Origin: Phormidium tenue FACHB-1052
GTDB lineage: Bacteria > Cyanobacteriota > Cyanobacteriia > Phormidesmidales > Phormidesmidaceae
Direction: 5' to 3'
Assembly: GCF_014696675.1 (NCBI RefSeq)
Contig: NZ_JACJQN010000007.1
Location: forward strand, 62,001-126,000
Length of the DNA stretch: 64,000 nt
The notes under the pieces are model-generated. The model did not search any database. It was not told the origin of the DNA and was given only the letters and a program-made list of their open reading frames with translations. Each line of letters starts with the position of its first letter. Position 1 is the stretch's first letter. Positions 1-15,060 of this stretch are shown piece after piece. Made by a program: the position numbers and the translations under genes.

Positions 1-419
1 AGGGATTTTTCAATAGCGCAGAATTGACAAGCCGTAGCTGGGTCACGGTAGCGCATACAGGTCTGCTGCACGGTGGTGGCCAGCACATCGCGCCCGTGGA
101 GCAGGGCAATCTTCGAGTAAGGAATACCATCGGCGGTGGTCAGACCGTAGAATTTGGGGGCATTGGGCACGTCGATGGGGGTGATGGCTTCTCCCGAGGC
201 CTCTATGTGCAAGGGGCTGGCGGCGGTAGCCCTGAGGGTGTAGGGAGAGTGGGCGGCGCTATCGGTGTAAACGGGCACCATGACAGTTGTGCCGTCGATG
301 GTGATAGCGCGGTGGTCAGAGGGGCCTGCTCCACCTCGCCGCCCCGCTGCCCCAGGGGTAGATTCCACCAGCCGCAGCCCGTGGGTTTGTAACTCTGTAA
401 TCAACCGCTGCTTGTTCAT
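1..419 (-). CDS. Radical SAM protein of the nitrilase (Nit1C) cluster, MSMEG_0568-like, cut by window start
   Basis: The reading frame opens at ATG 419 and runs off the window edge, so only the first 139 residues are visible. Seen directly: cysteines at residues 121, 131 and 134 (CX9CX2C, DNA about 18-59), a spacing that could bind a radical-SAM 4Fe-4S cluster although the common form is CX3CX2C. The family call rests on this motif and on position: it follows the nitrilase (100-nt gap) and the Sll0783-like gene on the same strand, the order known in Nit1C clusters such as Synechocystis sll0783-sll0785. In that cluster the radical SAM enzyme has no assigned substrate. Several in-frame non-ATG starts lie upstream, so the N-terminus is not certain. 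Confidence 0.8.
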   Translation of the reverse strand, partial: MNKQRLITELQTHGLRLVESTPGAAGRRGGAGPSDHRAITIDGTTVMVPVYTDSAAHSPYTLRATAASPLHIEASGEAITPIDVPNAPKFYGLTTADGIPYSKIALLHGRDVLATTVQQTCMRYRDPATACQFCAIEKS

Positions 420-519
420 GGCCTGATGTTCAATACCCAATAAAAATCTGCGTCGATCAGTGCCGCTAAAGACTGGTTAGCGAGCACATTCAAACCTATT
501 GAGCTGCGAAAGTTTTGAC

Positions 520-1569
520 CTATGAGGCTGGCAGACCAAGGCTGTTGGGGGGTAGGCCAACGGCTGCTTCGTCTACCAATACTGGGGCAGTCTGAGAAGC
601 TCCGTTCATGCCGGAGGAAACCTGGGCCGCCGCCTGAGCAGGCGTTTCTACCACCGACCAGGGTTCAGCATTCAACCGCAGGCGCAGCAGGTCGGGGCGG
701 GCGTAATGGCCCACCGAGTCCATCATGCGCTTGCGCTTGGTAATTAGGGAGAAGTCGAGATCGGCGATCGCCAACCCCTCCCCCTCACTAATCGGCTCCG
801 TCAAGGGCACTCCCTCAGGGCTAATAATGGCGGTGTAGCAGCCCCCCGACAGCACCCGCTGCATCCCCTCATCAGCAGTAATCTGCTGCTTTTGCTCTGG
901 CGTGAGCCAGCCGGTGGCGTTAACCACAAAGCAGCCCGACTCTAGAGCATGGTGGCGCATGGTGACCTCCATCTGGTCGCCAAAAATTTGGCCCACCATC
1001 GACCCCGGAAACTGACCGCAGTGAATTTGCTCGTTCTGGGTCATCAGCGCGTAGCGAGCGAGGGGATTGTAGTGCTCCCAGCAGGCCAGCGCCCCGACGC
1101 GCCCCACCACCGTTTCTACCACCCGCAGCCCAGCCCCATCTCCCTGCCCCCACACCATGCGTTCATGGTAAGTGGGGGTAATTTTGCGCCGCTTCAGCAC
1201 CAAGGTACCGTCAGCATCAAAGATTAGCTGGGTGTTATAAATCGAGCCGGCCTCCCGCTCGTTTACCCCCAGCACCACCACCATGCCGTAAGATCGGGCC
1301 GCTCGACCCACCGCATCGGTCACCGGCCCCGGCACTACCACGGCCTCTTCGTACAGCCGCATGTGCTCTTTACCCATCAGCACCGGCGGCTGCACAAATG
1401 AGAAATAGGGATAGTAAGGGATAAAGGTTTCTGGAAAGACGATGAGCTTCACCCCGGCCTGGGCGGCCTGGGCGATCGTCTCCAGCACCTTTTCGGTGGT
1501 ACCGTCGCAGCTAAACAGCACAGGGCTGATCTGCGCAGCAGCGGCTCGAATGGTTTTGGTGTAATCCAT
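520..1569 (-). CDS. Nitrilase, Nit1/Sll0784 family
   Basis: A 349-residue carbon-nitrogen hydrolase expected to convert nitriles to carboxylate and ammonia in the cytoplasm. The catalytic triad is visible: Glu47 in VFPETF, Lys129 in [11 protein letters not shown] and Cys163 in [10 protein letters not shown], with the CWE signature typical of true nitrilases. Length fits the family. It lies 62 nt after the Sll0783-like gene and 100 nt before the radical SAM gene, all on the minus strand, so co-transcription is likely. Clusters of this composition (Nit1C) have been linked to nitrogen-starvation responses in Synechocystis and to growth on cyanide in Pseudomonas fluorescens; the natural substrate here is unknown. 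No strong Shine-Dalgarno sequence precedes ATG 1569. Confidence 0.93.
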
Positions 1570-1631: not shown

Positions 1632-2114
1632 CTACATAGTCCAGGTGTCGAGAATGAAGGCCCCTTCTTTGCGGTGCATGAGCACGAGGTCGAGCACGTC
1701 GAGGGGATTGATGGGGCGAATGCCGGGGATAAGAGAGGGCTCGCCGTGGCCGTAGAGGGCTTGAAGGGCAAAGCGGCAGGCGTAGACCTTCCCGCCCAGT
1801 TCCATTACCTTGACGATCTGGTTGTTCATCGCCATGTGGCCAGGGAAAGCTTCATCGCCTAGCTTGGGGAAGCCACGCTGCACGCCCAGGGTGACGCCAG
1901 GGCCGTAGAGCAGTACCGAGGTGTCAAATCCCTTGCGAATCAGGCGAGTGGCCTGAAGCAAGTTCACCAGGCCAATGGATCCTTCAAAGGCCACCGTGTG
2001 GAAGGTGATCAGGGCTTTTTCGCCGGGATCGGCCTGCACATCGGGAAATACTTTCTCTTCGTAATCAACCAAAAAATCCCCAGCCTGGTGGGCTGGCAAA
2101 GTTACTTCAGGCAT
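1632..2114 (-). CDS. Sll0783/MSMEG_0572 family nitrogen-starvation response protein
   Basis: A 160-residue protein starting [15 protein letters not shown] chose ATG 2114 because AAGGAA sits 8 nt upstream; an in-frame extension to 2210 lacks such support and is low-complexity. The sequence suggests a DsrE-like alpha/beta fold (segments such as [13 protein letters not shown] and [16 protein letters not shown]). The Synechocystis homologue Sll0783 is known as strongly induced on nitrogen starvation and needed for polyhydroxybutyrate accumulation; its biochemical role is unknown. It is the first gene of the minus-strand part of the nitrilase cluster. The NtcA box at 2397-2410 is about 280 nt upstream and is best placed for the divergent gene, so direct control of this gene is only possible. 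Confidence 0.85.
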
Positions 2115-2483
2115 AGATTCAGTTCCTTGCAAAGTGGCTGGCAGCGCGGCATGTCTGGCTGCATGTCTCAGCACCTTACGGGCGATCGCAAGCGCCTCCC
2201 GTATCAGCAACTACAAACTTTGGCGGTCTGACCTAATCAACAGGGGCGCAGGTACAAATCGTTAGTTCGGGGTTCCAGTCACAGGGATACCCCTATCACT
2301 TTCGATAGGTAGGCTGGTCAAATTTACGCTGGACGAGGGTAGGACAGAGCGATCGCCCCTACCCTCCCTGCCACTAGCGCTAGATCAAGACTTTCGGTAG
2401 CCGGGGTTACAAGCATCCCCTGAGCAACGGCCTAGGGTACGAAAAAGAACCTCGCTCATCCCACACTTTTCAGGACGTACGGT
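2115..2483. promoter_or_regulatory. Divergent intergenic region of the nitrilase cluster
   Basis: This 369-nt spacer separates the minus-strand Sll0783-like gene from the plus-strand flavin oxidoreductase. It holds the NtcA-type promoter listed separately and no convincing coding sequence. A second weak half-match to an NtcA site (GTA near 2252 followed by TAG instead of TAC) was noted but not counted. Confidence 0.6.
2397..2438 (+). promoter_or_regulatory. NtcA-activated promoter
   Basis: GTA (2397-2399), eight bases, then TAC (2408-2410) gives an exact GTAN8TAC NtcA box. After 22 nt comes TAGGGT (2433-2438), an exact TAN3T -10 element. This box, spacing and -10 form the canonical class II NtcA-activated promoter, with the box centred about 41 nt before the expected start of transcription. 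It drives the plus strand and ends 46 nt before ATG 2484 of the flavin oxidoreductase. Sequence match is direct; function is inferred. Confidence 0.75.
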
Positions 2484-3764
2484 ATGACCATGCACTACGG
2501 CGTAATTGTGATCGGCGGCGGCCAGGCAGGGCTGTCAATGAGCTACTGCCTCAGTCGCCTGGGCATTGACCACATCATTTTTGAGCAACACCAGGTCGCC
2601 CACTCCTGGCGCACCAAACGGTGGGATTCGTTCTGCCTAGTCACTCCCAATTGGCAGTGCCAGCTACCCGGCTTTCCCTACCCCGGCGAAGACCCTGAGG
2701 GTTTTATGGGGCGCGATGCGATCGTGGAGTATATCGAGCGCTACGCCAACCACTTTGACCTACCGCTCAAAACCGGAGTCAAGGTAGAACGGGTGCGCCA
2801 GCCCAAGGGCGGAGGTTTTGAGGTGATCACTAATCAGGGCATCTTCACCGCTGATCAGGTCGTGGTGGCCACGGGCGGCTACCACACCCCCAAAATTCCC
2901 CGGTTGGCCGAGCGTCTGGCCCCCGACCTTGTGCAACTGCACTCGGCAGAATATCGCAACCCTGAGTCGTTGCCCGAGGGAGCGGTACTGGTAGTGGGCA
3001 CCGGGCAGTCGGGCTGTCAGATTGCCGAAGACTTGCATCTGGCGGGTCGGAAGGTGCATCTATGCGTGGGGGGTGCGCCGCGATCGCCCCGCCGCTACCG
3101 AGGCAAAGACGTAGTGGAATGGCTCGACCAGATGGGCTACTACGACCTGGCGATCGACGACCACCCCCAAAAAGACACCGTGCGCCACAAGACTAACCAT
3201 TACGTCACTGGGCGCGGCGGCGGGCGCGAAATCGACCTGCGCCACTTTGCCTTACAGGGCATGGGGCTGCATGGGCGACTCACAGATATTCAGGGCACCC
3301 AGCTCACCTTCAGCGACGACCTGAAGGCAAATCTCGACCAAGCTGACGCCGTTGCCGAAAGCATCAAGCGCACCATCGACACCTACCTTGAGAAAAATGG
3401 CATTGACGCGCCCATCGACCCGCCCTACCAGCCCGTGTGGGAGCCGGAGATCGTGGATACTGGCATCGACTATCGCGCCGCCAATATCACCTCGGTGATT
3501 TGGTGCATCGGCTACGGTCTCGACTTTCGCTGGGTCGAGCTACCCGTGTTTGACGGTCAGGGCTATCCCGGCCACCGCCGAGGAGTTACTACCGTGCCGG
3601 GGCTATATTTCCTTGGCCTGCCGTGGCTCTACACCTGGGGCTCTGCTCGGTTCTCCGGCATTGCCCGCGACGCTGAGTATTTGGCAGAGCAGGTTGCTGC
3701 TCGATCTGGAGTCAGCTCTCTCCGATCGCTACAGACCGTCAACGAAGTAGCAATGGGTTCATAG
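2484..3764 (+). CDS. Flavin-dependent oxidoreductase of the nitrilase cluster (MSMEG_0569-like)
   Basis: A 426-residue FAD/NADPH-binding monooxygenase-like enzyme. Two Rossmann motifs are visible: VIGGGQAGLS near residue 10 for FAD and VVGTGQSGCQIAE near residue 170 for NADPH, plus an ATGGYHTPKIPR segment typical of flavin monooxygenases. ATG 2484 has AGGA 8 nt upstream; ATG 2490 is an alternative. It is transcribed away from the nitrilase genes from the NtcA-type promoter at 2397-2438. Homologues accompany the nitrilase in Nit1C clusters (slr0801-like in Synechocystis). A role in oxidising an organic nitrogen compound to feed the nitrilase is inference. Confidence 0.88.
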   Translation: MTMHYGVIVIGGGQAGLSMSYCLSRLGIDHIIFEQHQVAHSWRTKRWDSFCLVTPNWQCQLPGFPYPGEDPEGFMGRDAIVEYIERYANHFDLPLKTGVKVERVRQPKGGGFEVITNQGIFTADQVVVATGGYHTPKIPRLAERLAPDLVQLHSAEYRNPESLPEGAVLVVGTGQSGCQIAEDLHLAGRKVHLCVGGAPRSPRRYRGKDVVEWLDQMGYYDLAIDDHPQKDTVRHKTNHYVTGRGGGREIDLRHFALQGMGLHGRLTDIQGTQLTFSDDLKANLDQADAVAESIKRTIDTYLEKNGIDAPIDPPYQPVWEPEIVDTGIDYRAANITSVIWCIGYGLDFRWVELPVFDGQGYPGHRRGVTTVPGLYFLGLPWLYTWGSARFSGIARDAEYLAEQVAARSGVSSLRSLQTVNEVAMGS

Positions 3765-3841: not shown

Positions 3842-4168
3842 CTAGGCGTGCTGCGAGCTTCGTGCTTGAGGATTTCGGTTTTCGAGCCACCGTTGCAGCG
3901 AGGTTTGACTTTCTCCCGAAGGTTGCCCCAACAAAATATTCTTCAAGCTAATGTCTTCATCAAGTTCTGGCCAGTGGATGCCTGCTTGACTGCCGGTTAA
4001 TTGCCAGTTGTCACGTTCTGCCGAGGTGCCATGGAGCAGTCGAGGATACCAGGCCAGCGGTACAGCGATAACGCGCCCATCCGATAGATCAACTGTGAGC
4101 AGGTCGGCAGAGATAGAAACCTGCTGAATTTCAGGAATGTTGAGGATTTCAACCATTGAAGAAGTCAT
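3842..4168 (-). CDS. DUF2442 domain protein
   Basis: A 108-residue protein with the DUF2442 signature: a strand-rich core reading LTVDLSDGRVIAVPLAWYPRLLH followed by GIHWPELDEDISLKNILLG (quoted in two pieces). Start at ATG 4168 has GGAAG 6 nt upstream and overlaps the 3' end of the DUF4160 gene by 20 nt, so the pair is translationally linked. DUF2442/DUF4160 neighbours recur in bacteria and have been suggested to form toxin-antitoxin-like modules; which partner does what is not known. The C-terminal 35 residues are polar and poorly conserved. Confidence 0.85.
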   Translation of the reverse strand: MTSSMVEILNIPEIQQVSISADLLTVDLSDGRVIAVPLAWYPRLLHGTSAERDNWQLTGSQAGIHWPELDEDISLKNILLGQPSGESQTSLQRWLENRNPQARSSQHA

Positions 4169-4385
4169 GCCAAGCTTCCAATAACTGCTGCTGATTGTCC
4201 TCGGTCAACGCTTGAAGGCGGTTTATCTCGTTAGACGAAAACCCCTTATTGAACTGAAGCCTTACTGGAGTCAGCCAAAACTTGGCCTCACTACTGTCGC
4301 GCTCGATATGAACGTGGGCTGGCTCATCGCGATCGCCCGCATAACAGAAGAAGCGGTAGGGGCCAACGCGAAGTAACGTGGGCAT
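4149..4385 (-). CDS. DUF4160 domain protein
   Basis: A 78-residue protein starting MPTLLRVGPYRFF, with the family hallmark EPAHVHIERD and a central AKFWLTPVRL segment. A TTG start at 4415 is possible, but the family begins at the MPT methionine, so 4385 was chosen. It precedes and overlaps DUF2442 by 20 nt. Upstream TACAAT (minus strand, about 4414-4419) may be a -10 element. Function is unknown; the small size, basic character and paired arrangement resemble a type II toxin-antitoxin module, which is inference. Confidence 0.85.
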   Translation of the reverse strand: MPTLLRVGPYRFFCYAGDRDEPAHVHIERDSSEAKFWLTPVRLQFNKGFSSNEINRLQALTEDNQQQLLEAWHDFFNG

Positions 4386-4443
4386 CGTGGCTATATACAC
4401 TCCCAAACACTTCAATTGTATGCTTGCATCGCCTGAAGCTTGA

Positions 4444-5256
4444 TCAAGACTGCCCTAGTTCCTTAGACCGCAGGTAGGCCGATCGCACCGCTTCGATCAG
4501 GGCCGATCGCAGCCCGCCCGCCTCTAGGGCCGCAATGCCCGCAATGGTGGTACCGCCGGGGCTGGTAACGCGGTCTTTGAGCACGGCGGGGTGAAGATCG
4601 CCCTGGTGCAGCAACTCACCGGTGCCGCGTACGGTGGCGATCGCCAGCTCTAGCGCGATCGCTCTCGGCAGCCCCACCGCCACACCACCATCGGCCAGGG
4701 CCTCCACCACTAAGGCGATATAGCCTGGCCCAGAACCTGAAAGCGCCGTGACCGCATCCATCTGCGATTCGGGCACCTCGACTACGGTACCGACGCTGGC
4801 AAAGATGGCGCAAGCCTGTTCTCGCTGGGCAGTGCTCACCGCCTCTCCTGCCGCCAGGGCCGTCACCCCAGCCCCTACCGTAGCGGGCGTATTGGGCATG
4901 GCTCGCACCACTGCCCAGCCCAAGAATTCCTGTTCTAGCCGGGCCAGCGTCACGCCGGCCAAAATCGACAGCAGCAGCGGTGGCTTCTCTCGCTCTGGGA
5001 ACCTGAGATTTTCGGCTACAGCCTCCAGCATTTGGGGCTTAATCGCCAGCAAGACTGTCTCAGCGGCATCGATTACAGCTTGATTCTCTGCGGTAGTCTG
5101 CACGCCGTAGGTATGGTGCAAAATCTCTCGCCGCGCTGCCTGGGGGTCACTCACGATCACCGCTTCAGGAACAAAAACCCCTTGATCAAGAAGGCGGGTG
5201 ATGAGAGCTTCTCCCATCATCCCGCCGCCGATAACCCCAAATGTTGCCTCAGGCAT
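4444..5256 (-). CDS. proC: Pyrroline-5-carboxylate reductase
   Basis: A 270-residue enzyme that reduces pyrroline-5-carboxylate to proline with NAD(P)H, the last step of proline synthesis. The N-terminal Rossmann motif GVIGGGMMGEAL and the C-terminal signature (DRVTSPGGTTIAGIAALE) are present. ATG 5256 is preferred because GAGG lies 6 nt upstream; GTG 5268 and ATG 5262 are also in frame. It is the last gene of the pipX-pipY-sepF-proC arrangement found in many cyanobacteria, 119 nt after sepF. proB, the first proline-pathway gene, is in this window at 41928-43076. Confidence 0.95.
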   Translation of the reverse strand: MPEATFGVIGGGMMGEALITRLLDQGVFVPEAVIVSDPQAARREILHHTYGVQTTAENQAVIDAAETVLLAIKPQMLEAVAENLRFPEREKPPLLLSILAGVTLARLEQEFLGWAVVRAMPNTPATVGAGVTALAAGEAVSTAQREQACAIFASVGTVVEVPESQMDAVTALSGSGPGYIALVVEALADGGVAVGLPRAIALELAIATVRGTGELLHQGDLHPAVLKDRVTSPGGTTIAGIAALEAGGLRSALIEAVRSAYLRSKELGQS

Positions 5257-5375
5257 AACCATCCTCACCGACGACTCGATCAGTTGCGATCGCTAGTGAA
5301 GACAATAACCTAAGGTAGCCCCCGGTACTAGACCGGGAGCGGTGATAGTCACGTGTTGATCAAGCGTGGATAACG

Positions 5376-5978
5376 CTAGGCCATGCGAGCAATAGACTCG
5401 GAACCCCAAGCGGGAGCGGGGGGCATTTGGCCGGGCATGGGCATACCCTGGGGCTGACCCATGAAGACTTCTTCTTCGTACTCGGTGGGAGTGCTCACCT
5501 GTACGCAGTTGGGCGTAAACAGGAAGATGCTTTCGCCGATGCGCTCTTGGTGCCCGTCAATGGCGTAGGTGCCGCCCGCCACAAAGTCAACAGCACGCTG
5601 AGCCTGGTCGGGATCCATAATGGTGAGGTTCAGGACGACCGACTTGCGCTCGCGCAGCGCCTGAATGGCCTGGGGCATTTCTTCAAAGGAGCGGGGTTCC
5701 ATCACCACCACTTCGGAGGTGCCGTTCATGGCACCGGGCATACCAATTACGTTGCTGGCCATCGGGGTCATTCCTGCATCAGTGGGCATCATTCGTTCGC
5801 GACGGGGGCGGCTCCGGCGAATTTCTTCGGGCTGGGGCGGCTGCACTATCGGCTGGGTGTTTTCTTCTTGGTAGAGGTTCTGGTACTCCTCTCCATCCAT
5901 TTCTTCGTATTCGTAGTCGTAATCTGCTGGGTCGTTAAGGCCAACGAAGTCCCGCAGTTTAGAAAACATATTGCTCAC
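5376..5978 (-). CDS. sepF: Cell division protein SepF
   Basis: A 200-residue FtsZ-associated division protein (YlmF/Cdv2). Visible parts: an N-terminal amphipathic membrane-targeting segment ([11 protein letters not shown]), an acidic and Pro/Arg-rich linker (residues about 18-90), the conserved SepF core (residues about 93-170, including [18 protein letters not shown] and [13 protein letters not shown]), and a Met/Pro-rich tail. GTG 5978 has GGAG 8 nt upstream; ATG 5969 is the alternative. SepF polymerises and tethers FtsZ filaments to the membrane in bacteria lacking FtsA. It sits between pipY and proC in the same orientation. Confidence 0.95.
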
Positions 5979-6510
5979 AACTTACACTCCACGATGACTA
6001 TCACTCTGGTAGACCAACCCCGTGGCCGTTGACCAATAGGGGGCATCATGCTCCGGTTATCCGAGGGCCATGATAGCGCCAATTTTCCATTTGCAACGGC
6101 TGTTGTGAAAATTAATGGGGCTAGCCTGGGGTTTTTGGGGTAGTCAGCCCCTCTAGGAGGGCTGCTGACCGACTAAACCTAGTCTCAAAAACTCAGTGGA
6201 TAGAACAACACCGTGGGGTGACGCTTCTCTCTGAGCTAGGCAGGCTTAGGGTTTGAGTTAATATCCTGTACTCAGAATATTGAGTCAACAGTATACACGA
6301 AACCCAAAAAAGGAAGAGTCAATTCACAATTAGTTAAAGTTTTTCTAATCGTGTTTTGGTTTTGCGTCAGAACGTGATTTTCTGACTGGAAGAATAACAG
6401 GCGCTCAAGGCGGTCAGCGATCGCCCCAACCCATTGCCCCACCGCTATCTCTGCCGCTGATTCGAGTTGACAACCGAGGGCAAAAATGACTGCATCCCTC
6501 CCTAACGGAG
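5979..6510. other. Intergenic region between pipY and sepF
   Basis: This 532-nt stretch has no convincing gene on either strand. It contains an imperfect hairpin at about 6143-6169 (GTCAGC...GCTGAC arms) without a following T-run, so it is not a clear terminator, and an AT-rich part (6240-6370) that probably carries the minus-strand sepF promoter. A reading frame through 6414-6683 is antisense to the pipY end and was not accepted. Confidence 0.5.
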
Positions 6511-7197
6511 TCAGGTAGACGACGGTCGAGCGCCAAACAGAATGGTACCGAGGCGCACCATGGTAGCTCCACAGGCGATCGCCGCGCCATAGTCCCCTGA
6601 CATGCCCATAGAAAGCTGGTCAATGTGCAATCGCTTAAAGCTGGTTTTGTTGATGGTATCAGCCAGGGATTTGGCCCCCGCAAACACCTCGCGCACCGTA
6701 TCTGGGCTAGACCCTTGAGGAGGAATGGTCATTAGGCCGCAAATTTGAAGGTGCGCTAGCTGGTCGAACTGGGGCAACAGATCAGGCAATTCAGCCGCTT
6801 CAAGGCCAGCCTTGGGCGGGTCGGGTACCAGTTTAACCTGGAGACAACAGTGGGGCACTTTCCCGAGTTCTTGAGCCGCTTGGTCGAGGCGTTCGGCCAG
6901 CTTTAAGCTGTCCACCGAGTGAATCCAGTCGAAGTGCTCGACGGCTTTGCGGGCTTTGTTGGTTTGCAGGTGGCCGATCAGGTGCCAGGTGATGTCGGGC
7001 AGGTCGCTGAGGTCGGCTTGTTTAGCGATCGCCTCCTGCACCCGGCTTTCGCCAAAATGGCGGATCCCTTTGTCGTAGGCAGAGCGGATGGTTGCTACCG
7101 GCAAAAACTTGGTCACCGCAATCAGGGTTACCGTGGGGGGAATGCTTTGGCGAATCCGCTCAAATTGCTCAGGCAGGGCACCGGGGGCAGCGGTCAT
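6511..7197 (-). CDS. pipY: PLP homeostasis protein YggS/PipY
   Basis: A 228-residue single-domain PLP-binding protein of the YggS/PROSC family. The PLP lysine is in LIAVTKF near residue 30, followed by the family segment GIRHFGESRVQEA, and the phosphate-binding C-terminal part MGMSGDYGAAIACGATMVRLGT (quoted as two adjoining pieces). Its ATG overlaps the pipX stop by 4 nt (7194-7197), the classic coupled pipX-pipY arrangement. PipY works in vitamin B6 and amino/keto-acid balance and genetically interacts with PipX in Synechococcus. Confidence 0.95.
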   Translation of the reverse strand: MTAAPGALPEQFERIRQSIPPTVTLIAVTKFLPVATIRSAYDKGIRHFGESRVQEAIAKQADLSDLPDITWHLIGHLQTNKARKAVEHFDWIHSVDSLKLAERLDQAAQELGKVPHCCLQVKLVPDPPKAGLEAAELPDLLPQFDQLAHLQICGLMTIPPQGSSPDTVREVFAGAKSLADTINKTSFKRLHIDQLSMGMSGDYGAAIACGATMVRLGTILFGARPSST

Positions 7198-7466
7198 TGA
7201 AAGGTTTGCTTATAGGTGTGCTGGAGGCGATCGAAGTCGGCCTGCTGGCCTGCCCGCCGCAAAATCCGTAGGCGACTTTCGAGCATCATGCGAGCGTTGC
7301 TCCGGCCCAGGGGTTGAAACACTAGCCCCTCTGTGGGGGAATTGGTGACCAAAAAAAACAGCCGCTGGGCATATAGCGTGGCATACAGCTCTTGACCGTC
7401 GTCTACTATACACACTCTAAAGAGCAGGCCAAAATTGGGGTGATTTAGATAGGTTTCTGTGCTCAT
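7194..7466 (-). CDS. pipX: PipX, PII-interacting coactivator of NtcA
   Basis: A 90-residue protein matching PipX throughout: N-terminal YLNHPNFGLLFRVC, the Tudor-like core ELYATLYAQRLFFLVT and the two C-terminal helices ending YKQTF. PipX binds NtcA as a coactivator when 2-oxoglutarate is high and is sequestered by PII when nitrogen is plentiful. It overlaps pipY by 4 nt. The presence of an NtcA-type promoter at 2397 in the same window ties it to the local nitrogen genes. Length is typical. Confidence 0.97.
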   Translation of the reverse strand: MSTETYLNHPNFGLLFRVCIVDDGQELYATLYAQRLFFLVTNSPTEGLVFQPLGRSNARMMLESRLRILRRAGQQADFDRLQHTYKQTFQ

Positions 7467-11486: not shown

Positions 11487-11841
11487 AGCTTGGGCCTTTT
11501 AGGCAGATGAATGGTTCAGCAGACCTGGAAGCCACACATTGCTAGACGCCCAGATCATCAATGGGAAAATCTTCCCAATCTTTCCATTGTAGTCAAGAGA
11601 TCACGGTCTGGGAAAGTTAGGTGATTAAAGGATGACCTATAGAAGGCAACTGAGACTAAGGCTGTAATGCGATCGCGGCGATTGTCAGCTGACGGTCGTA
11701 GCACGTGAGATAGCTATCCCGCGATTAGCGCTAGACCAAAAGGTAGGCAATGCTCACCCTAGAGCAAGCTCTTTTACCAGAAAGCTGTCAGTTGTTTTCT
11801 CGGTTTGAGGGTGGGCAATGCCCACCCTACCTGGAGGTTTT
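11487..11841. other. Intergenic region between der and the CSP41-like gene
   Basis: This 355-nt region has no supported gene. It contains two copies of a hairpin-forming GGTGGGCAATGCCCACC-like element (listed separately) and an AT-rich part near 11590-11650 that could hold the der promoter on the minus strand. Confidence 0.5.
11741..11828. repeat. Two copies of a short palindromic repeat
   Basis: At 11808-11828 AGGGTGGGC and GCCCACCCT form a perfect 9-bp stem around a 3-nt loop. At 11741-11760 lies a diverged copy (AGGTAGGCAATGCTCACCCT) whose stem has two mismatches. Palindromes of this type are dispersed in many filamentous cyanobacterial genomes, typically between genes. The perfect copy ends 13 nt after the stop of the CSP41-like gene and could also act in transcript ending. 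Confidence 0.6.
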
Positions 11842-12771
11842 TTAGGCCGCTAAAATTTTGTCATCAAGGGCAAAATCGATCGCGGCTTTGTCGGCGCCAG
11901 AAGCAAGATAGTCGTTCTGGAACGAATCTTTTAGGCCCGCAACCAAGTCGTAAGTGGGTGCCCAGCCCAGTTCTGCCTGGGCCTTGTCGATCGCGGTAAA
12001 GAAGTGCTGCACCCGCATCGGGAAAGCCTTCGCCTTGCCAAAATCAAAAGCCTTGGGGTCGTAGTGAACAATCTTGAGGCTATCAGGATCCTTACCAGCT
12101 GCTGTTGCGCAGGCGCGAGCTAGGCCGTCGAAGGTGACGGCTTTTTCGCCGGAGATATTGTAGATTTGGCCGATCGCCGTCTCGTTCCCCAGCACCGCTG
12201 CCATAGCGGCCGCCAGGTCTTGCACATGGCCCAGCTGGGTGAGGTGCATGCCGTTGCCGGGGATGGGAATGGGGCGATCGCGCACCACCCGATCAAAGAA
12301 CCAGGCTTCTAGCGGGTTGTAGTTCTGCGGGCCATAAATGTAGACCGGGCGCACCGAGGTAAACGGCACCCCCTGGGCTTGCAGGTAGGCTTCGGTTTCA
12401 AACTTGCCCTTGTGGCGGCTCTTCGGATCCACTGCATCGCCTTCGATGTGGGGCATTTGGTCAGATTTAAGATATACCCCGGCGGAGCTGACGTAGACAA
12501 AGTGTTGGAGCTTGTCGCCAAACAGCTCAACCAGCGGCTGGGTATCGCTCAGCTCGCGCCCGTTGTTGTCGAAAATGGCGTCGAAGGTTTCGCCCGCGAG
12601 CTGGTTGAGGCTGTTGGGGTCGGTGCGATCGCCCACAATGGTCGGCACCCCCTCTACGGGCGCGGGATGGTTGCCTCGGTTAAACAGCACCACCTCGTGG
12701 CCCTGCTCAATCAATAGTTTGGTTAGATACACCCCAATAAACCGGGTGCCACCGATGACCAGTACACGCAT
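11842..12771 (-). CDS. CSP41b-like NAD-dependent epimerase/dehydratase family protein
   Basis: A 309-residue atypical short-chain dehydrogenase. The N-terminal nucleotide motif is MRVLVIGGTRFIG, followed by VLFNRGNHP and a YVSSAGVY segment; YLQAQGVPFTSVRPVYIYGPQNY occupies the usual Tyr/Lys region (split here at SVRP). Overall it resembles chloroplast stem-loop-binding protein CSP41b, which binds RNA and ribosomes in plants. ATG 12771 is chosen because GGAGAGG lies just upstream and the family starts here; an extension to 12822 is unlikely. A cyanobacterial role in RNA stability is inference. Confidence 0.85.
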   Translation of the reverse strand: MRVLVIGGTRFIGVYLTKLLIEQGHEVVLFNRGNHPAPVEGVPTIVGDRTDPNSLNQLAGETFDAIFDNNGRELSDTQPLVELFGDKLQHFVYVSSAGVYLKSDQMPHIEGDAVDPKSRHKGKFETEAYLQAQGVPFTSVRPVYIYGPQNYNPLEAWFFDRVVRDRPIPIPGNGMHLTQLGHVQDLAAAMAAVLGNETAIGQIYNISGEKAVTFDGLARACATAAGKDPDSLKIVHYDPKAFDFGKAKAFPMRVQHFFTAIDKAQAELGWAPTYDLVAGLKDSFQNDYLASGADKAAIDFALDDKILAA

Positions 12772-13026
12772 TGCCCTCTCCTTCCTGCTAACCAGCCGCC
12801 TAGAACATGCTGAAAGCAACATGCTGGAAGACGCACTGAACTTAATGTATGTATATTAAGCTGCGCCGATCCCCCAAATTCTGTCGAAGAATCAAGGGAT
12901 TTAGGTTCAAAGCCGTTAAGCAAACCAGTAGATAACGGCCTAGATCTTACGCTAGGGGGGGAACCCGCCTAAAATGTTATGAGTTGAGCACCGGCCTTGA
13001 CACCCTAAGCGCGAGATTGTCTCTAC

Positions 13027-14139
13027 ATGCGAGAGCTGGACAACGCCTATAGAATTTTGGAGCTAGAGCCCGGTGCCTCGATCGAGGATGTCAACCAGGC
13101 GTATAAAGATCTAGTGTTCGTCTGGCACCCCGATCGCATTCCCCAAGACAACGAGCGCCTCTATCAAAAAGCCCAAGACAAGATCAAAGCGCTGAACCAC
13201 GCCCGAGATTTGCTGCGATCGCACAACCGCAATAGTCGCAGCAGCTCCAGCTCGGCCAGCAGTCGCTACGGTACCGCCAGCAGCAGCTATCGTCCCTCGA
13301 CAGCCAGCAACTACGGCACCAGCGACTATCGCTCTGCTTACAGCAATGGCTACAATAACAACGGCTACGGTAGCGCCAAGTCTCAAGATGCCGACAGCGA
13401 AGAACAGCGATCGAGCTCCCACAATCGTTACTATCGCTACCAGCGCAACACCTACGGCGGCAGTTACTACGGGGCCAGCCAGAGCGACGGCAACCCATCC
13501 TCAGGCTCTAGCACGTCCAGCAGCGGTTCCTCTTCCTCAAGCTCTAGCACCAGCCAGTCGCAAACCTACCGTGAGCGGCGCGATGCCGCAGCAGGGGTAG
13601 GGGGCGATAAGGCTGCCAGCGCCAAGGGCAGTTCGAGTAGCCAGAGTCAGGCCAGTACCAACGGCAAAACACCTAGCTCCCCCCCCAGCAGCCAGGCCAG
13701 CTCCAAACCTCCTAGCGATTCTTACAACAGCTACAACGCCCACACTCGTAGCGGAGCCGCGCGATCGCGCCAGAGCCCCGACCTCAGCGGCACCGACATG
13801 AGCGGAGCCAACCTACGCGAAAAAGACTTCGGGGGACGGAACCTCAGCGAGGCCAACCTCAGTGGGGCCGACCTCAGCGACGCCTTTTTGCACAAGGTTA
13901 ATCTCAACCGCGCCAACCTCAGCAAGGCCAAACTGTTTCGCGCCAACCTGCTCCAGGCCGACCTCAGCCACGCCAACCTGCGCGAAGCCGACCTGATCGG
14001 GGCCGACTTCAGCGGGGCTGACCTCAGCGGGGCTGACCTCAGCGGCGCAAAGGTAGCCGTGGGGGGCCGCACCATGGTGAAGCTCACCGGGGCCATTCTC
14101 ACTGGGGCAATTATGCCCGATGGATCCATTCACGATTAA
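13027..14139 (+). CDS. J-domain protein with Ser-rich linker and C-terminal pentapeptide repeats
   Basis: A 370-residue three-part protein. Residues 5-65 form a J domain with the HPD motif at 34-36, which stimulates DnaK-type chaperones. Residues about 68-255 are a low-complexity linker rich in Ser, Tyr, Gly, Asn and Gln. Residues about 255-350 contain consecutive A(N/D)LxxA(D/N)L pentapeptides such as SGANL, SGADL, SDAFL, NRANL, SKAKL and SGADL, predicting a right-handed quadrilateral helix. There is no zinc finger or DnaJ C-terminal domain, so it is a class C J protein. It stands alone, divergent from the CSP41-like gene. Confidence 0.88.
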   Translation: MRELDNAYRILELEPGASIEDVNQAYKDLVFVWHPDRIPQDNERLYQKAQDKIKALNHARDLLRSHNRNSRSSSSSASSRYGTASSSYRPSTASNYGTSDYRSAYSNGYNNNGYGSAKSQDADSEEQRSSSHNRYYRYQRNTYGGSYYGASQSDGNPSSGSSTSSSGSSSSSSSTSQSQTYRERRDAAAGVGGDKAASAKGSSSSQSQASTNGKTPSSPPSSQASSKPPSDSYNSYNAHTRSGAARSRQSPDLSGTDMSGANLREKDFGGRNLSEANLSGADLSDAFLHKVNLNRANLSKAKLFRANLLQADLSHANLREADLIGADFSGADLSGADLSGAKVAVGGRTMVKLTGAILTGAIMPDGSIHD

Positions 14140-14160
14140 TTTGTGATGGGTTGAAATAAC

Positions 14161-14197
14161 GGTTCAAGGTTCGAGACGCTGCCTAAAACCTTGAACC
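14161..14197. terminator. Hairpin between convergent genes
   Basis: GGTTCAAGGTT (14161-14171) and AACCTTGAACC (14187-14197) form a perfect 11-bp stem around a 15-nt loop. It lies between the ends of the J-domain gene (+) and the hydrolase gene (-). There is no T-run on either side, so a factor-independent terminator is not certain; a bidirectional RNA 3'-end structure is the likeliest role. Confidence 0.55.
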
Positions 14198-14223
14198 CTA
14201 CACCTGATAACCCTTCTCTCCAG

Positions 14224-15060
14224 TCACCCTCCCAAGTAATCGGTCACGCTTTGATTAAACGCCTCTGGCTCTACCAGGTGGGGCCAGTGGTTGCCGGGGA
14301 TGGCCTGTATTTGCAGGTTGGGCAGGTGGGTACGGTAGGGTTTGAGCTGCCAAGCCGTGCGATTGAGCCCGGCTTGGGGCAGCAGCAGTAGGGTCGGCAC
14401 CGTCAGATTTGTGGTTAGGCCAGCCCGATGGAGCGTGTCGTGAAACACGCCGTTGCGGGCGGCGATCGCAAACTTGCTCCCCCAGCGGCCATCGGGCTTC
14501 TGCTCCATACCAGCTTGAAATACGGCGGCTTGCAGCGGACTCCAGCCCCGGTACTGCTTCAGGGTGCGGGCAACAGATTCTGCCGCCCCATAGCTCTCAA
14601 ACGGCCCCATCACCTTCAAAAAGGGCAGGGTGCGATAGAACAGCGGCAACGTAGGTTGCAACCAGCTCGGCAACTGATTCACAAAAAACGGATCCACCAA
14701 TACCAAACGGCGAACGCGCTGGGGTTGCCGCTTGGCCCACAGCAAGGCCAGTTTGGCGGCCCACGAATGGGCCACAACGGTGATTCGATCAGCGTGACAG
14801 GCGATCGCCAGCGCTTCTAAATCGTCAACCAGTTCAAGCGCATCATAAGCGGCGACATCGTCAGGCTTGCCGCTGTCGCCATGACCGCGCAGGTCAGGGG
14901 CCAGACAGCGATAGCGCGGCCCCAAGCTTTCGGCCAGGCTCTGCCACACCAACCCGTGGTCGGCTAGCCCGTGGAACAGCATCAGTGGTTCTCCGTCTCC
15001 CCACTGTTGGTAGGCTAGAGGCACGGACGCGCTAGATAATGTGTGGCGAGAAAACGACAT
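14224..15060 (-). CDS. Alpha/beta hydrolase
   Basis: A 278-residue alpha/beta-hydrolase-fold enzyme. Seen: oxyanion-hole segment MLFHGLADHGLVW, CLAPDLRGHGDSGKP, the nucleophile elbow VVAHSWAAKLALLWA (Ser in HSW), and a terminal His in IPGNHWPHLVEP. Substrate is not predictable. ATG 15060 was chosen since homologues begin near MSFSRHTL; a GTG at 15105 would add 15 residues. It is 92 nt downstream of queA on the same strand. Confidence 0.88.
   Translation of the reverse strand: MSFSRHTLSSASVPLAYQQWGDGEPLMLFHGLADHGLVWQSLAESLGPRYRCLAPDLRGHGDSGKPDDVAAYDALELVDDLEALAIACHADRITVVAHSWAAKLALLWAKRQPQRVRRLVLVDPFFVNQLPSWLQPTLPLFYRTLPFLKVMGPFESYGAAESVARTLKQYRGWSPLQAAVFQAGMEQKPDGRWGSKFAIAARNGVFHDTLHRAGLTTNLTVPTLLLLPQAGLNRTAWQLKPYRTHLPNLQIQAIPGNHWPHLVEPEAFNQSVTDYLGG

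Follow-up and report, generated by a model that had tools for sequence, protein, structure and literature searches.

A divergent promoter region with two NtcA promoters and a second conserved site suggests two-input control of Nit1C genes in cyanobacteria

The Nit1C cluster and its neighborhood

The window analyzed here, a stretch of 64,000 nucleotides from Phormidium tenue FACHB-1052, begins inside a Nit1C gene cluster. The Nit1C gene set is present, with the nitrilase, the Sll0783-type gene (nitG), and the flavoprotein gene (nitH) above their NCBIfam cut-offs and the radical SAM gene (nitD) matched in part. The whole ORF of the latter spans 13332-14441 in locus L039, and more ORFs lie beyond the window. 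The genes that concern us are the following:

1..440, minus strand: start of nitD, a MSMEG_0568-family radical SAM gene (partial TIGR04043 match, below cut-off at the window edge)
520..1569, minus strand: nitC, a Nit6803-family nitrilase (TIGR04048, 586 bits; cut-off 503)
1632..2114, minus strand: nitG, a MSMEG_0572/Sll0783-family nitrogen starvation response protein (TIGR04044, 286 bits; cut-off 110)
2484..3764, plus strand: nitH of Nit1C, a MSMEG_0569-family flavin-dependent oxidoreductase of 426 aa with its ATG at 2484 (TIGR04046, 682 bits; cut-off 498)
7194..7466, minus strand: PipX (NF045912, PF12058), not counted within the switch discussed below
12808-13326 of locus L039: GNAT-like ORF, named by eye and position only
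11809-12801 of locus L039: AIR synthase-like ORF, likewise named by eye and position only

The cluster is followed at 4444-7466 by proC, a SepF-like gene, pipY, and pipX. Between the flavoprotein gene and proC, a DUF2442/DUF4160 gene pair occupies 3842-4415; only some near relatives (L041, L042, and L043 in part) have it. Elsewhere, the genome of this strain encodes one ntcA gene above cut-off.

NtcA acts together with 2-oxoglutarate and PipX, and the first-pass annotation had cited a nearby pipX gene when tying the cluster to NtcA. The gene does lie about 5 kb away (ca. 4.8 kb from the NtcA box described below), yet we give this nearness no weight and reject it as evidence. All 27 genomes with a Sll0783-type gene above cut-off contain pipX, but outside the genome of the window the two are on different contigs or over 280 kb apart in all 26 cases. 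Similarly, proC/sepF adjoin the flavoprotein gene in 7 named loci that all belong to one group. Because pipX is distant in the 26 other genomes, its position here reads as local synteny of this one group.

Two back-to-back promoters of the NtcA class II type

The available text of the source defines NtcA class II promoters by a GTAN8TAC box, a TAN3T -10 element, the spacing between them, and the lack of a -35 element (PMC3898017). Two such patterns occupy the 369-bp intergenic region between the flavoprotein and Sll0783-type genes, on opposite strands:

2397..2410, plus strand: NtcA box of the flavoprotein promoter, GTAGCCGGGGTTAC, of the form GTAN8TAC and conserved in relatives
2433..2438, plus strand: -10 element TAGGGT of the flavoprotein promoter, 22 nt after the box
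2201..2214, minus strand: second NtcA box, that of the Sll0783-side promoter, GTAGTTGCTGATAC, oriented toward nitG and nitC and likewise conserved in relatives
2173..2178, minus strand: -10 element TAAGGT of the Sll0783-side promoter, 22 nt after the second box

Both show the exact box and a TAN3T -10 element at a distance of 22 nt without a -35 element; on the flavoprotein side, no -35-like hexamer (at most 2/6 matches to TTGACA) was found 15-19 nt before the -10 element. By the class II rule (box centered at -41.5), transcription of the flavoprotein gene would start near 2445 and transcription on the Sll0783 side near 2166. The earlier description of an exact box and -10 element ahead of the flavin oxidoreductase gene is thus borne out. 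It had overlooked that the nitrilase and the Sll0783-type gene are served by an NtcA promoter of their own, as well as a second type of conserved site at 2227-2244, 2292-2309, and 2367-2384.

Taken alone, the box before the flavoprotein gene is not above chance because GTAN8TAC occurs 4 times in the window versus a shuffle mean of 4.96 and because the full pattern (box, 22 nt, TAN3T) has 18 matches in the 5.82-Mb genome versus 16 for the reversed pattern. It rises above chance through the second full match in the same gap together with conservation in other cyanobacteria.

Conservation of the NtcA promoters

Conservation was assessed in the 80 named loci whose Sll0783-type proteins are closest, 50 of them cyanobacterial, by scanning 450 bp upstream. 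A class II pattern precedes the Sll0783-type gene in 32/50 cyanobacterial versus 0/27 non-cyanobacterial loci (the latter, scanned on the nitG side, include L109, which is titled only as an uncultured bacterium) and the flavoprotein gene in 28/37 cyanobacterial loci. A search for the same box before homologous genes in related genomes, as proposed at first pass, therefore finds it to recur widely: without picocyanobacteria, the pattern is present at 32/45 nitG and 28/32 flavoprotein genes and at both in 22/32 named loci. Five named picocyanobacterial loci, none with a class II match, were left out of these 45.

Among 18 representatives of upstream-sequence clusters, which are crude since the clustering threshold of 0.62 is close to shuffled identity (0.58-0.60) so that unrelated loci were merged, the GTA/TAC pair was found in 8 (nitG) and 13 (flavoprotein), while 63 other palindromic trimers averaged 0.03 with a maximum of 1. 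In the same 18, only a spacing of 22-23 nt stands out. In relatives, the core of the flavoprotein-side box is kept and its N8 varies. NtcA control of the cluster is therefore likely, as judged from these promoter sequences. The proposed tie of Nit1C to nitrogen limitation stands to the extent that an NtcA class II promoter is well supported by cyanobacterial conservation; the box that it had been built on faces the flavoprotein gene only.

A full class II match before nitG is absent in 13/45 non-picocyanobacterial loci. In four of these (L056-L059), the gene directly upstream in the same orientation is the flavoprotein gene, which carries an NtcA promoter of its own, and read-through from there may therefore serve nitG.

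Three further loci (L072, L076, and L094) come from metagenome-assembled genomes titled Hydrocarboniphaga, Alphaproteobacteria, and Tatlockia that hold cyanobacterium-like Sll0783-type genes, and these were excluded from both groups. L094 is likely a mis-binned cyanobacterial contig because it carries an NtcA class II promoter before this gene.

A second conserved site upstream of the NtcA boxes

Alignment of the divergent gaps brought out a palindrome midway between the two genes (site I), and a related, weaker copy (site II) precedes each NtcA box:

2292..2309, no strand assigned: site I, palindrome CCTATCACTTTCGATAGG, common to both promoters, at a distance from its start of 105 bp to the flavoprotein box and 95 bp to the second box
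2367..2384, plus strand: site II of the flavoprotein side, CCTGCCACTAGCGCTAGA, whose start lies 30 bp ahead of the box at 2397..2410
2227..2244, minus strand: site II of the Sll0783 side, CCTGTTGATTAGGTCAGA, whose start lies 30 bp ahead of the box at 2201..2214

In general form, the palindrome is CCTRYC-N6-GRYAGG, with some loci reading CCTGTC-N6-GACAGG at site I; it lies about 94 bp ahead of the NtcA box, and the weaker copy precedes the box by exactly 30 bp. The general form ranks first among 1024 degenerate palindromes at -97..-91 and -32..-28 (75 promoter instances). Across the 73 distinct promoters examined, site I is found with at most two mismatches at -95..-92 in 35/41 nitG promoters, and site II is found at -30 in 30/73, 54/73, or 66/73 promoters when two, three, or four mismatches are allowed. 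The reduced motif CCTN12AGR lies at -30 in 52/73 promoters (nitG 30/41, flavoprotein 22/32); the offsets of site I are its next most frequent positions, and all remaining offsets have 5 occurrences or fewer. Offsets of site I near -116, -105, -94, -83, and -71 look stepped, though the vector length has a broad maximum at 11-12 instead of 10.5, so that helical phasing is suggestive only.

These sites are largely specific to the cluster. The palindrome with at most one mismatch occurs within 650 bp of nitG in 31/45 non-picocyanobacterial versus 3/27 non-cyanobacterial loci. In this genome, the sole match of CCTATCN6GATAGG is site I of the window, and among the 18 class II matches site II accompanies only the two window promoters. 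Over 15 genomes, the same strict palindrome is found at 7 places (5 at the cluster, 2 elsewhere), and the longer CCTATCGN4CGATAGG has matches in 2/386 genomes, both at the cluster. A composite of site II, NtcA box, and -10 element has 16 matches (8 at 22 nt, 8 at 23 nt) in 60 genomes, i.e., the 15 non-picocyanobacterial genomes with a Sll0783-type gene above cut-off and 45 others. Fifteen of these precede nitG or the flavoprotein gene, and reversed-pattern controls gave 0 and 1 matches; the gene behind the sixteenth (L172), recognized by eye, is presumably glutamine synthetase. TetR-like and other operators were considered for the palindrome and set aside. A partner regulator whose gene accompanies the cluster probably binds this conserved site.

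A GAF-LuxR protein that travels with the cluster

The best candidate for this partner is a GAF- and GerE-domain (LuxR-type) protein, ca. 480 aa long, that recurs as a cluster neighbor in 9/45 named loci. With at most 4 candidates scored per genome, it was found at E <1e-70 in 14 of 386 genomes of the phylum, and the next matches are GAF-only proteins at 1e-33 or worse. It is present in 14/15 non-picocyanobacterial genomes with a Sll0783-type gene above cut-off and was found in 0/12 picocyanobacterial genomes with this gene and 0/359 genomes without it above cut-off (Fisher's test for co-occurrence, with kinship ignored, 1.4e-18). Seven families (f3, f6, f12, f14, f15, f19, f26) each include some genomes that carry both the regulator and the Sll0783-type gene and others that lack the two.

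In this genome, the gene is an intact ORF of 481 aa on contig C12 (about 401642-403087), unlinked to the cluster. In G215 it adjoins the flavoprotein gene apart from nitG, and both of these genes keep the composite promoter. G058 and G121 (L013, L022) have the GAF-LuxR gene and lack a good palindrome, and in G159 the Sll0783-type gene has an in-frame TGA and the regulator is absent.

The helix-turn-helix (HTH) was found in 14/14 genome hits, and the GerE domain matches PF00196 with 64.7 bits. The Pfam scan, which returned GAF and GerE, found neither an autoinducer-binding nor a receiver family. A structure model from a single sequence had a pLDDT of 33, and one from six sequences reached 73.9 with a pTM of 0.42. 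In the latter, the GAF domain best matches 3trc (Z 16.0, 157 aligned, 3.1 Å), an ATPase-like middle part matches 3zxo (Z 14.4, 111 aligned, 2.1 Å), and the GerE HTH matches 1fse (Z 13.8, 65 aligned, 1.2 Å); the top Foldseek matches are mostly phytochromes with low TM. A receiver-like stretch is our own reading of the alignment and model, and none of the structural matches listed covers it. This stretch is missing from the shorter proteins of L055 and of five of the 14 genome hits (L149-L153).

The regulator gene itself may be under NtcA control in some species, as suggested by its upstream sequences. The 160 bp ahead of the GAF-LuxR gene contain a strict GTAN8TAC in 10/20 loci (19 distinct sequences), and a box that deviates from the core at no more than one position is followed after 22-23 nt by CTCAAT in 7/20 promoters (L140, L142, L143, L141, L065, L070, L146). 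No NtcA box was found before the gene in this genome. GAF-only genes gave 0/10 with such a box, an unfair control because the stretch upstream of them is probably coding.

Picocyanobacteria

Neither input is universal because 17 picocyanobacterial loci lack the class II pattern on either side (0/17) and 12 whole genomes of this group lack GAF-LuxR. Relaxed rescans brought up no shared site, with a match in 1/17 loci for at most one core mismatch (L026) and in 2/17 for GTN10AC (L024, L026), and NtcA control was rejected for these 17 loci. Picocyanobacteria thus have no NtcA boxes, no palindrome, and no GAF-LuxR gene. The gaps between their flavoprotein and Sll0783-type genes (L023-L034, L077, L078, L098, L112, L113) have two different conserved stretches in common, roughly TGTAGCGAAAAGCACTA and GGTTGCATTAGACACA, which perhaps reflect another control.

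Relation to known systems

The Synechocystis sll0783-ssl1464 operon (Nit1C), which holds the same gene families as the cluster in the window, is induced by nitrogen starvation and repressed by ammonium, and the available text describes neither an NtcA site nor a second regulator for it (PMC3901256, PMC10094980). Synechocystis 6803 lies outside our locus sample. The link of the cluster to nitrogen starvation is therefore already known and not new; what is new here is the palindrome upstream of the NtcA box with its weaker copy at -30. In other cyanobacteria, Nit1C has been linked to cyanide and low-nitrogen waters, as far as the available text goes (PMC9716671, PMC10119275).

Canonical NtcA class II promoters (glnA, nirA, urtA, ntcB) resemble those of the window in box, -10 form, spacing, and lack of a -35 element. 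Unlike them, the promoters of the window form a divergent pair that shares a palindrome, and each of the two is preceded by a second conserved site at 30 bp from its box. Pairing of a global with a specific regulator is known from the nir operon, where NtcA acts with the pathway-specific, LysR-type co-activator NtcB; the pairing is alike, but NtcB binds other sites and the partner here would be of the GAF-LuxR type.

A Pseudomonas nit1C cluster encodes the sigma-54-dependent regulator NitA, according to the available text (PMC10138600). NitA is likewise a dedicated regulator of the same enzyme genes, though its protein class is unrelated to GAF-LuxR. Pseudomonas is not known to have NtcA.

The lux box ACCTGTAGGATCGTACAGGT, with the core CCTGTA-N6-TACAGG in the available text (PMC4444344), has the same length, spacing, outer CCT/AGG, and CCTGTN8ACAGG shape as site I, and both regulators have a GerE-type HTH. 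In contrast to LuxR, an autoinducer-binding domain was not found in GAF-LuxR, which has a GAF sensor instead, and we regard the resemblance as a likeness of shape, not proof. The literature covered, which leaves out most subscription journals, yielded no paper on sll0783 together with LuxR, and mentions of LuxR in the available text on nit1C concern other matters.

A proposed two-input promoter and its alternatives

Taken together, we consider it quite probable that the gap is a divergent two-input promoter at which NtcA and a dedicated GAF-LuxR co-regulator control the Nit1C genes. The complete layout is also found at locus L050, from the laboratory filamentous strain Nodosilinea nodulosa PCC 7104. 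Under nitrogen limitation, NtcA would bind both GTAN8TAC boxes of the 369-bp region and, in the class II mode that does without a -35 element, drive transcription rightward into the flavoprotein gene and leftward into the Sll0783-type gene and the nitrilase. The second regulator, most likely the protein composed of GAF, degenerate histidine-kinase ATPase, receiver-like, and LuxR-type HTH parts, would bind site I in the middle of the gap and, just before each NtcA box, site II, centered near -70. There it would help or gate NtcA, such that the genes come on only when nitrogen shortage coincides with a second signal, perhaps a cyanide, nitrile, or redox cue. The binding of both proteins, the ligand of the second, and a contact between sites I and II are predictions from sequence, and the position of the sites would favor activation as the sign of the second regulator.

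That the box before the flavoprotein gene is a mere chance match seems very improbable to us. Its pattern does occur at background level in genome and window, but the core is kept while the N8 changes in relatives, a second promoter shares the gap, and site II is fixed at -30 on both sides. Conserved class II promoters would equally be expected if NtcA controlled the genes alone, with the palindromes belonging to some other general DNA-binding protein and GAF-LuxR acting elsewhere. Co-occurrence and neighborhood are indeed no proof of binding, and good palindromes are lacking in G058 and G121 despite the presence of the regulator. However, a general protein should have many sites, whereas the strict palindromes are nearly confined to the cluster (2/386 genomes; 5 of 7 places) and the presence of GAF-LuxR tracks the cluster, so that we find this explanation unlikely.

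Somewhat less unlikely, though still not favored, is that the second regulator acts as a repressor released by nitrile or cyanide instead of a co-activator. Two sites at roughly constant distance could hold a repression loop, and Nit1C is cyanide-induced in Pseudomonas according to the available text (PMC10119275, PMC9716671). Against this, 12 bp separate the end of site II from the NtcA box downstream of it, and both the box and the -10 element are left free. Such a location upstream of the box is usual for activators.

Co-activation by NtcA and GAF-LuxR can be drawn out into a fuller picture that we put forward tentatively, as possible rather than probable. Most non-picocyanobacterial Nit1C clusters would then have an AND-type promoter combining NtcA with a dedicated one-component regulator, i.e., a collapsed sensor kinase/response regulator with GAF, dead ATPase-like, receiver-like, and LuxR HTH parts. 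This protein would sense cyanide, nitrile, or a related redox signal, use two sites about six turns apart, and in some of the species be controlled by NtcA itself, forming a coherent feed-forward loop.

Significance

In cyanobacteria, the cluster may serve cyanide or nitrile use, PHB, or redox balance, and our analysis provides a testable regulator and a testable site for it. If true, two-input control would explain a possibly incomplete induction of Nit1C by nitrogen starvation on its own, and the inducing signal would become approachable through a purifiable GAF protein. The NtcA network would also gain a partner of a new class.
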